Source: Dysgonamonadaceae bacterium (lineage in GTDB: Bacteria > Bacteroidota > Bacteroidia > Bacteroidales > Dysgonomonadaceae). Taken from it: a DNA stretch of 37,027 bases. The notes beneath the pieces were generated by a model, which was not told where the DNA came from, made no database searches, and worked only from the letters and a program-made list of their open reading frames with translations. The translations under genes and the position numbers were made by a program. Positions 27,703 to 30,777 of the stretch are shown piece by piece. The stretch's first letter is position 1. Each line of letters begins with the position of its first letter. The stretch lies in contig JARICS010000070.1 in assembly GCA_029264035.1 (NCBI GenBank), forward strand, positions 1-37,027, read 5' to 3'.

Positions 27703-28440
27703 ATGAATGAAAGTCAAGAGAGCTATTTTACAATAGAGAAAAAACGGATGCGCATAGCATTTGTTCCCACTTTTGTTCTGATCTGTTTGCTATGGCTCAT
27801 CTATATATTAGACTCATCGCTAACGCTACAACTCTATCAATATGGGGTTTATCCTCTTGAAATGAAAGGGTTGCCAGGATTGTTTTTGTCGCCACTCATT
27901 CATCATTCTGCAAAGCATCTTCTGTCAAACACCCTTCCGCTTTTAGTACTTATGTGGTGTTTATACTATTTTTATAGTGCAATTGCTCACAAAACGTTTT
28001 TGCTTTTATGGTTGCTTAGCGGATTGCTCACTTGGACTATTGGGCGAGAAGCATGGCACATTGGTATTAGTGGTGTTATTTATAGTCTTTCTTTTTTTCT
28101 ATTCTTTAGTGGTATTTTTCGCAGACATATTCCACTTATTGCTATTTCTCTAATTGTTGCTTTTTTGTATGGCAGTACTGTGTGGAATATGATGCCATGG
28201 TCTATTTATTTAGATGCTAATGTTTCGTGGGAGGGTCATCTCGCCGGGGGCATTAGTGGTCTTATAATAGCACTAATATTTTATAAACACGGTCCTCAAA
28301 AGCCTCAAAAAAATTGGATTGATGAGTACGAAGATGAAGGTAATGACGTAGATACTTTTTATGGAAGTTATTGTAGAATAATAGATAGGGTAGTTATTAA
28401 GATAGACCAAGATGACGTTGAGAATGATGATAGAAGTTAA
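27703..28440 (+). CDS. Rhomboid-family intramembrane serine protease
   Basis: Rhomboids cut substrates inside the inner membrane. The 245-aa protein has about six hydrophobic segments. The catalytic pair is visible: Ser123 in GISGVIYS and His179 in WEGHLAGGISG. The HHSAKHLLSN loop (residues 67-76) matches the conserved H-x4-H-x3-N helix that helps form the oxyanion site. The last 45 residues are a very acidic cytoplasmic tail. Substrates are unknown. It has its own promoter and is divergent from the glycogen cluster. Confidence 0.93.
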   Translation: MNESQESYFTIEKKRMRIAFVPTFVLICLLWLIYILDSSLTLQLYQYGVYPLEMKGLPGLFLSPLIHHSAKHLLSNTLPLLVLMWCLYYFYSAIAHKTFLLLWLLSGLLTWTIGREAWHIGISGVIYSLSFFLFFSGIFRRHIPLIAISLIVAFLYGSTVWNMMPWSIYLDANVSWEGHLAGGISGLIIALIFYKHGPQKPQKNWIDEYEDEGNDVDTFYGSYCRIIDRVVIKIDQDDVENDDRS

Positions 28441-28503: not shown

Positions 28504-28548
28504 GCTATAATAGTAAACTGACTTTTGCGACTTCTAATTTAAAAGTTA

Positions 28549-28556
28549 TATATTTA
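28549..28556 (+). promoter_or_regulatory. Probable -7 box for the SLC12-like transporter
   Basis: TATATTTA is one base from TAnnTTTG, and a TTTTG at 28523-28527 lies about 21 bases upstream as a -33 element. A start near 28564 gives a leader of about 27 bases to the proposed ATT start at 28591. Confidence 0.45.
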
Positions 28557-28590
28557 CAAAATACTAATTTTTCAAGAATAAAAATTTACT

Positions 28591-30777
28591 ATTATCAAAA
28601 ACGGAACAAAAAATACAGCACATGGTTTAAACACCTTTGAAGGAGTCTTCACTCCCTCCATACTCACGGTTCTGGGTGTAATCATGTATCTTCGCTTTGG
28701 TTGGGTTGTTGGCAATGTGGGACTTATTGGCACACTTATCATCGTCACCTTAGCTACATCCATCACTTTTCTTACAGCTCTATCCATTGCATCTATTGCC
28801 ACCAATGCACCTGTTAAGGCAGGAGGTGCCTATTTTTTGATAAGTAGATCATTAGGTGTGGAAATGGGCGGAGCAATTGGTATTCCATTATTTCTAGCAC
28901 AAGCTTTTTCTGTAGCTCTCTATATCATGGGCTTTTCAGAAAGTATGATTGCGATATTCCCTTCACTGAATATTAAATTGGTGGGTATTGTCACAACTGT
29001 TCTTCTGAGTCTGCTTGCTATGTTTTCAACCAAAGCTGCTATTCGCGCTCAGTTTGTTATTTTAGCAGTAATCGCCTTTTCCCTTATATCGTTTTTTCTT
29101 GGGGGACCCATTGAAGATTCTCATATTGAACTATGGGGTGTTCCAGCAGCTGAGTCTGTCAACTTTTGGACTGTATTTGCAGTCTTTTTCCCTGCTGTCA
29201 CAGGTATCATGGCCGGAGTAAATATGTCGGGCGATTTGAAAGACCCTGCTAAATCTATTCCAAAAGGCACTTTTATGGCCGTGGGTGTCGGATATGTTAT
29301 CTATATGGTTGTACCCTTCTTCTTTGCTTTCAGAGCAGATGCTGCTACGTTAGTGAGCGACAATATGATTATGCAAAGAATAGCCTATTGGGGCTTTGCT
29401 ATTTTGTTGGGAATCTGGGGTGCAACTTTATCGAGTGCTGTAGGAAGTTTACTAGGTGCACCTCGAGTGTTGCAAGCTTTAAGTATAGACAAAGTATTGC
29501 CCTCAAAGCTCTCATTCTTAGGTAAAAGTTCAGGTTCCGAAAAAATACCACGAGCTGCAACCATCTTTACATCCATCATCGCACTAACACTTATCTCTTT
29601 GGGCGATTTGAATACAATTGCACCTATCTTAACTATGTTTTTCTTAACAACCTATGGCACACTCAATCTTACCTCAGGAATAGAAACATTGCTGCAGAGC
29701 CCATCATTCCGACCAAAATTCAAAGTTCACTGGATATTCTCTTTTCTTGGTACAATTGGTTGTGTGGCTGTCATGTTTCTTATAAATGCTCTTGCAACTG
29801 TTGTTGCTATGGTTTTTATTGTAGGAATATATGTATGGTTGCGTCGCCGCAGACTCAAAACAACTTTTGGAGATGTTACTCGTGGAATGTTATTGCAAAT
29901 AGTTCGCTATGCCTTGTTGAGGCTCGACTCTACAGCTGACCATGCAAAAAGCTGGCGTCCCAATATATTGGTCTTTTCGGGCATGCCCACCAAAAGGTGG
30001 CATTTAATTGATTTTGCTTATGGAATAGTGCAAGAGAAAGGTCTCATTACTGTGGCAACCATACTTCCCGAAGAAGGGGTGTCGCAAGAAAGAGTTGCCA
30101 AACACGAACGAAATATTTCGACTTACTTGAGCGGCAAAGACATTAAAACACTGGTGAGAGTAACTAGGGCTGAAAATGCTTTTACGGGCTCTAAACAATT
30201 GGTCAATTCTTATGGATTGGGTAGTGTAGTTCCAAACACTGTTTTGCTTGGAGATACCGAAGAGAACAGTCATCACGAGCCCTATTGCGATATGGTGTCG
30301 CATTTCTATAAATCGAAGAGAAATGTAATTATACTCCAGAATGATTTTAAACTTGATTATGCTGGAGTCAAAAAGATTGATCTTTGGTGGGGTGGTCTCA
30401 AAGGCAATGGTGGCCTGATGATGATAATAGCTCATTTGATAAGAACCAGTCCGCGCTGGCAAAATATAGAGGTGTGTGTCAAAATGGTAGTTGCCTCAGA
30501 GGAAGCTGCCAAAGGAACACGCGAAAACCTAAAGAACATTTTGATTGAAATGCGTGTTGCTTTCGACTATGAAATCATTGTATCTGAAGGACGAAGTTTT
30601 TGGGATATCCTTGAAACTGAGTCTAAAGATAGCACAATGGTGATGATGGGACTGAAAGTTCCAGACGAGAACTTTGCTGATTATTACAAACAATTGAAAA
30701 TAAATACTAAAGCTATTGCTAACAAGGTGTTCTTTCTCGCTGCTGAGCACATAGATTTTAAAGATGTGCTGAATTAA
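28591..30777 (+). CDS. SLC12-like cation-chloride/amino-acid transporter (APC superfamily), likely non-ATG start
   Basis: This is a membrane transporter of the amino acid-polyamine-cation fold, closest in pattern to bacterial Na-K-Cl cotransporter homologues. About 12 hydrophobic segments fill residues 25-430, and a soluble SLC12-type C-terminal domain follows (RPNILVFSGMP onward). The first ATG is at 28684, but the conserved family start TFEGVFTPSILTVLGVI is encoded in frame just before it and includes half of membrane helix 1. The frame is open back to a stop at 28579 and contains no ATG, GTG or TTG, so I place the start at ATT 28591, giving 728 aa. ATC 28594 is possible. The transported ion or solute is not certain. 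Confidence 0.8.
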   Translation: MIKNGTKNTAHGLNTFEGVFTPSILTVLGVIMYLRFGWVVGNVGLIGTLIIVTLATSITFLTALSIASIATNAPVKAGGAYFLISRSLGVEMGGAIGIPLFLAQAFSVALYIMGFSESMIAIFPSLNIKLVGIVTTVLLSLLAMFSTKAAIRAQFVILAVIAFSLISFFLGGPIEDSHIELWGVPAAESVNFWTVFAVFFPAVTGIMAGVNMSGDLKDPAKSIPKGTFMAVGVGYVIYMVVPFFFAFRADAATLVSDNMIMQRIAYWGFAILLGIWGATLSSAVGSLLGAPRVLQALSIDKVLPSKLSFLGKSSGSEKIPRAATIFTSIIALTLISLGDLNTIAPILTMFFLTTYGTLNLTSGIETLLQSPSFRPKFKVHWIFSFLGTIGCVAVMFLINALATVVAMVFIVGIYVWLRRRRLKTTFGDVTRGMLLQIVRYALLRLDSTADHAKSWRPNILVFSGMPTKRWHLIDFAYGIVQEKGLITVATILPEEGVSQERVAKHERNISTYLSGKDIKTLVRVTRAENAFTGSKQLVNSYGLGSVVPNTVLLGDTEENSHHEPYCDMVSHFYKSKRNVIILQNDFKLDYAGVKKIDLWWGGLKGNGGLMMIIAHLIRTSPRWQNIEVCVKMVVASEEAAKGTRENLKNILIEMRVAFDYEIIVSEGRSFWDILETESKDSTMVMMGLKVPDENFADYYKQLKINTKAIANKVFFLAAEHIDFKDVLN

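Follow-up and report, generated by a model that had tools for sequence, protein, structure and literature searches.

To our knowledge, few bacterial genes with an evolutionarily conserved AUH start codon (AUU, AUC or AUA) are known, and infC, pcnB, ccpN, cvfC1 and rnhC are among them. In infC, the gene for IF3, an AUH start is conserved over species and belongs to the class of codons that IF3 discriminates against. Escherichia coli pcnB begins with AUU, a weak start that is thought to hold a potentially harmful product low. Staphylococcus aureus provides two further examples, ccpN (AUA) and cvfC1 (AUU), whose conserved non-canonical starts reduce initiation and of which the former is shared with Bacillus subtilis (PMC13009471). 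The GTC start of Streptomyces sigR is repressed by IF3 and sets protein dosage (PMC5472188), and Listeria rnhC has a fixed ATC start that is reported as experimentally confirmed (PMC13068326). AUH-type codons have been found to lower synthesis in other bacteria and to be repressed by IF3 (PMC5472188; PMC13009471; PMC13068326).

Here we describe a gene for an SLC12-like cation-chloride cotransporter that very probably starts at AUC, found in a window of 37,027 nucleotides, by which we mean the whole stretch of DNA analysed (contig JARICS010000070.1 of a Dysgonamonadaceae bacterium, assembly GCA_029264035.1). The gene resembles infC in that its putative AUH start is conserved over species and falls in the codon class that IF3 discriminates against. 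However, the cotransporter is not a translation factor and there can therefore be no autoregulatory loop via its own product, unlike the case of infC. The parallel with pcnB is that of a weak start thought to restrain a potentially harmful product, although gene, phylum and context all differ. The ccpN and cvfC1 sites possess an extended Shine-Dalgarno sequence, on which these best-described of the recent AUH cases depend, whereas none was seen in the cotransporter leaders. Similarly, sigR differs in having GTC rather than an AUH codon, in encoding a sigma factor and in having an extensive ribosome binding site ahead of it; rnhC shares the ATC codon but is an enzyme gene of Firmicutes. Conserved AUH starts as such are thus of a known kind. 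What appears to be new, as judged from comparative sequence data, is a conserved AUH start in a transporter gene and in a phylum that makes no use of Shine-Dalgarno pairing, and a literature search that had most subscription journals outside its scope returned no report of AUH starts in Bacteroidota. With its apparent retention in some 20 species of this phylum, the trait offers a natural test bed for weak-codon recognition in the absence of such pairing.

An SLC12-like gene without a canonical start codon

The gene occupies positions 28594..30777 of the + strand, on which all features described here lie, and encodes 727 aa followed by a stop. Its product matched Pfam AA_permease (4.6e-51, 174.4 bits against a cut-off of 24.6) and SLC12 (1.2e-18, 67.8 bits against a cut-off of 27) and, amongst solved structures, SLC12A7/KCC4 (3.3e-91) and NKCC1 (2.7e-44, N-terminal part). 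With NKCC1 (6nph, 7mxo) it shares the transport domain and part of the C-terminal domain, but it is bacterial and its N-terminus is short (~14 residues). Both proteins contain the ATLSSA motif and the Tyr of AMYVVGF/ALYIMGF, which in NKCC1 are elements of the sodium and potassium sites. This suggests sodium- and potassium-coupled chloride transport as the putative activity.

The upstream bound of the frame is an in-frame TAA (28579..28581), and direct reading of the sequence from this stop to ATG 28684 revealed no in-frame ATG, GTG or TTG. The intervening codons spell the peptide K F T I I K N G T K N T A H G L N T F E G V F T P S I L T V L G V I, the C-terminal end of which is LNTFEGVFTPSILTVLGVI. 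An out-of-frame ATG (28622..28624) reads ATG GTT TAA. Among the other 14 clade leaders, ATG is also found at this position in L025 and L145 and GTG in L043, and all of them run into the same early stop. A preliminary description of this DNA had reported both the lack of a canonical codon ahead of the conserved N-terminus and the immediate termination of the out-of-frame ATG, and both are borne out here by the sequence and its translation; the congeners likewise lack a canonical start. It had also proposed a rare non-canonical start upstream of ATG 28684, namely AUU 28591. We retain an upstream start of the AUH type but move it to the adjacent AUC (28594..28596), since the AUU is not conserved, and we put the probability that translation starts at AUC 28594 at roughly 0.87.

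Conservation and spread of the AUH codon

The genus is represented in our collection by four genomes, all of which (4/4) contain the gene. The three congeners of the window, with 85-91% identity, also have no canonical start at the same place. Common to all four is TATCAAAAAC, with AUC in register, and in each of them ATC AAA AAC is found in frame exactly 13 codons ahead of the Thr of Thr-Phe. The codons between ATC AAA AAC and Thr-Phe vary among the four, and immediately ahead of the ATC the alignment is poor. Of 15 Bacteroidales without a canonical start, 14 have a near-cognate codon, differing from ATG by a single base, at offset -13 (6 AUC, 5 AUU and 3 AUA), compared with at most 5/15 at any other offset; the exception, L023, reads ACA at this offset but carries an ATT at -11. 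The following two codons, AAA AAC (28597..28602), are conserved as well, with AAA at codon 2 in 13/15 and AAC or AAT at codon 3 in 11/15. Moreover, two loci of another family (L133 and L173, 58-59% identity) contain GCT ATC AAA AAT at the same offset, and thus also ATC.

These relatives were collected by scanning 84,980 species genomes and searching further genomes, which yielded well over a hundred loci; many of the genomes compared are metagenome assemblies. In a first set of 89 distinct proteins, 50 had an in-frame upstream ATG, 21 had only GTG or TTG and 18 had none of the three, and these 18 cluster on the tree. In Bacteroidota, weak starts seem to be common throughout the bacterial SLC12 family. 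A canonical start is absent from at least 20 related species, most of which have AUC, AUU or AUA at the corresponding position; they comprise the three congeners and 17 further species, sequenced in several independent projects. Within a wider clade of 32 cotransporters (support 100/99), 21 have no canonical start, 9 have ATG and 2 have TTG. Nested in it is a Bacteroidales subclade of 17 species (support 98/93), where 15 are without a canonical start, two have TTG (L022 and L027) and none has ATG. The ATG lineages of the clade of 32 are Cyclobacterium, with the ATG ~15 codons before Thr-Phe, and Marinilabilia, with the ATG 7 codons before it. Because these related lineages have ATG, AUH is not indispensable; since the position of the ATG differs between them, AUH may be ancestral in the clade, with ATG acquired twice. 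We consider the distribution best explained if AUC, AUU and AUA starts arose long ago in this Bacteroidota transporter clade and have been retained since.

Initiation context and candidate promoter

A-rich start contexts are typical of Bacteroidota, whose ribosomes do not use Shine-Dalgarno pairing. Ahead of AUC 28594 lies an A/U-rich initiation context without a Shine-Dalgarno sequence (28580..28593), with A at -10 to -14, -6 and -3. When 17 leaders were aligned, A was found at -11 in 16 and at -12 and -13 in 13, a purine occupied -3 in 16, and the first, second and fourth bases after the start codon were A in all (17/17). No Shine-Dalgarno sequence at usable spacing was detected in the 17 leaders, AGGA occurring only at -20, in L133 and L173. 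In Flavobacterium johnsoniae, adenines at -3, -12 and -13 promote initiation (PMC6847099). The leaders are also less structured than controls, with a mean folding energy around the codon of -2.5 kcal/mol versus -5.5 kcal/mol for neighbouring genes, and no RNA structure resembling a control element was seen in them.

Further upstream, pattern matching identified a candidate Bacteroidota-type promoter (28524..28555), made up of TTTG at 28524-28527 and TATATTT at 28549-28555. The TATATTTAC part of this candidate is kept in the four congeners, and the rest of the spacer aligns poorly. The pattern itself is only mildly enriched in the window (18 occurrences versus 10.3 expected). From its position we infer a transcription start at ~28562-28565, which would give a leader of ~30 nt.

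Proposed role of the weak start

We propose that AUC 28594 would be read by initiator tRNA, presumably as fMet, and that initiation there would proceed at low efficiency, helped by the open, unstructured, A-rich leader without Shine-Dalgarno pairing. The weak codon may be kept because synthesis of a membrane ion transporter thereby stays low, and it would leave that synthesis open to control via initiation fidelity, through the level or activity of IF3. That the weak start throttles synthesis of the transporter is a reading towards which the sequence data tilt us slightly, and regulation of the AUC start through IF3 would be plausible. More tentatively, the AUH codon could be a selected regulatory device, whereby, in bacteria that do without Shine-Dalgarno pairing, cotransporter expression would be set by the fidelity of initiation (through IF3 and possibly through ionic conditions acting on it), with the codon drifting among AUC, AUU and AUA and kept off AUG over long evolutionary times; we hold this to be possible but rather doubtful. 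That no reversion to AUG was seen is no more than suggestive: six third-base changes were counted among AUC, AUU and AUA and none to AUG, but in most of these genes G is scarce at fourfold sites (~7-15%), so that the result does not reach significance by itself.

The alternative that survives best accepts the AUH start as real but regards it as non-adaptive, that is, as a weak start tolerated under weak selection for expression. It concerns the role and not the codon, and its probability is not to be added to those of the alternatives considered below. In its favour, the gene is patchy across species and TTG or GTG starts are common in the family (21/89). However, the trait has lasted over a total branch length of ~2 substitutions per site in the 17 species, with zero ATG inside, and purifying selection on the protein itself is strong. 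We regard tolerance of a weak start as a serious contender that nevertheless falls well short of even odds.

Alternative points of initiation

Amongst the alternatives that do concern the codon, initiation at AUU 28591 (28591..28593) fares best. This codon is in frame and lies directly upstream, three bases ahead of AUC 28594; AUU is the known start of E. coli infC (PMC5472188), and AUH codons are also found at offset -14 in 5/15 relatives. However, the corresponding position reads GAT, CGT or GCT in the three congeners. Start contexts were also scored with a matrix built from 157 neighbouring genes, in which the start codon itself was ignored. In the window, AUC 28594 scored 0.8, which is below the control mean of 2.6 (sd 3.0), versus -1.7 for AUU 28591. 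By this measure AUC ranks second in the window, where an internal CTG within helix 1 scores higher and ATT 28591 lower, and the AUH codon is the top-scoring near-cognate in 12/17 leaders. We treat this ranking as supporting evidence and not as decisive. Initiation at AUU 28591 is, in our estimate, improbable.

It is less probable still that ribosomes enter the frame from further upstream, whether through a frameshift, readthrough of a stop or reinitiation after termination of the previous gene. In the window the previous gene is of the rhomboid family (27703..28440; Pfam Rhomboid 1.1e-13), with its stop 153 nt before the ATC, and no intrinsic terminator was found between it and the transporter gene. 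Reinitiation is conceivable in family f97, a second family with the trait, where the previous gene is another one, PdxH-like by eye from its C-terminus, and ends 17-51 nt upstream. In contrast, three of the four genomes of the genus have the rhomboid gene at a distance of 153-187 nt, with a promoter-like site between, and a different ORF is found in the fourth. Since the upstream gene and the spacing differ by lineage, coupling, readthrough or frameshift is very unlikely as a general mechanism. Moreover, stops separate the frames in most species and no out-of-frame start is common to all species. For three loci (L026, L029 and L036) a frameshift from a nearby start can be set aside, since none of their frames contains ATG, GTG or TTG within 90 nt. 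Even reinitiation would need a start codon, and AUH is the only shared one.

A start at ATG 28684 (28684..28686), with the conservation upstream of it being fortuitous, we consider highly improbable. No other canonical codon precedes this ATG in the frame, and its Met is conserved in the 17-species clade. However, across the 18 codons from Thr-Phe to this Met the mean dN within the clade was 0.03 versus a dS of 1.27, and the segment before ATG 28684 is therefore under selection as protein. A start at 28684 would also remove the predicted helix 1. AlphaFold places this helix at residues 15-32 counted from AUC (mean pLDDT 72.9, first 17 residues below 50), so that a start at Met31, close to the end of the helix, loses nearly all of it. 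The part removed includes LTVLGV, which aligns with LNIWGV of NKCC1, a helix-1 stretch that there forms part of the ion site. Comparison with orthologues had been put forward in the preliminary description as a check, and in relatives with a canonical ATG that codon does lie upstream of Thr-Phe. Translation of the segment before ATG 28684 is thus supported, with AUH as the only shared start candidate. Gene callers limited to ATG, GTG and TTG would place the start where nearly all of helix 1 is lost, and the annotations and expression constructs derived from them would therefore be wrong.

Finally, a sequencing error or recent mutation that took away an ATG in the window assembly, which the preliminary description had named as what would overturn its reading, can be dismissed: the out-of-frame ATG 28622 adjoins short runs in which one missing base could mask a start, but none of the three congeners (0/3) has ATG at that position, and error as the cause is excluded because these congeners and 17 other species, assembled in several independent projects, show the same absence.

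Control genes and infC

The control scan covered neighbouring genes of the same contigs, with antisense shadow ORFs filtered out. In the genus of the window, only the cotransporter gene was flagged among 63 genes. The scan of 122 genes in f97 flagged 11 copies of the cotransporter and 3 copies of a single other ORF, in which an ATG precedes a signal-peptide-like stretch. Among these 185 neighbouring genes, no other appears convincingly to be without a canonical start. An ATG lies near the conserved start in 157 of 169 neighbouring genes, whereas the remaining 12 have only GTG or TTG.

As a positive control we turned to infC, most copies of which in f97 lack a canonical start. At seven f97 loci (L215, L217, L218, L219, L223, L224 and L226) there is no ATG, GTG or TTG before the conserved N-terminus, and the f97 loci share GTC/GTT ATA GCA/GCG/GCT GGA CCA AGA. 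The apparent start is AUA, in line with the known AUH start of infC, which suggests that these bacteria do initiate at AUH codons. The window's own genome assembly, which is 66% complete, contained no infC and the gene of congeners was used instead. There (L101-L103) infC starts ATG AGA TAT, and so its AUH start seems to have been replaced in the genus.

Other starts in the family

Four further relatives (L037, L040, L042 and L164, including Cryomorphaceae, Pleomorphovibrio and Owenweeksia) have no canonical start; candidate AUH start codons are found there at other offsets. Pleomorphovibrio marinus is a cultured relative of this kind. Outside the AUH clade, only TTG or GTG is found at L053, L055, L057, L062, L078, L088, L135, L136 and L137, often then followed by AAA AAC or GAA AAC. 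Lastly, L021 alone among the congeners has a tiny ORF, ATG GAA AAA TAA, just before the AUC and 57 nt before Thr-Phe.
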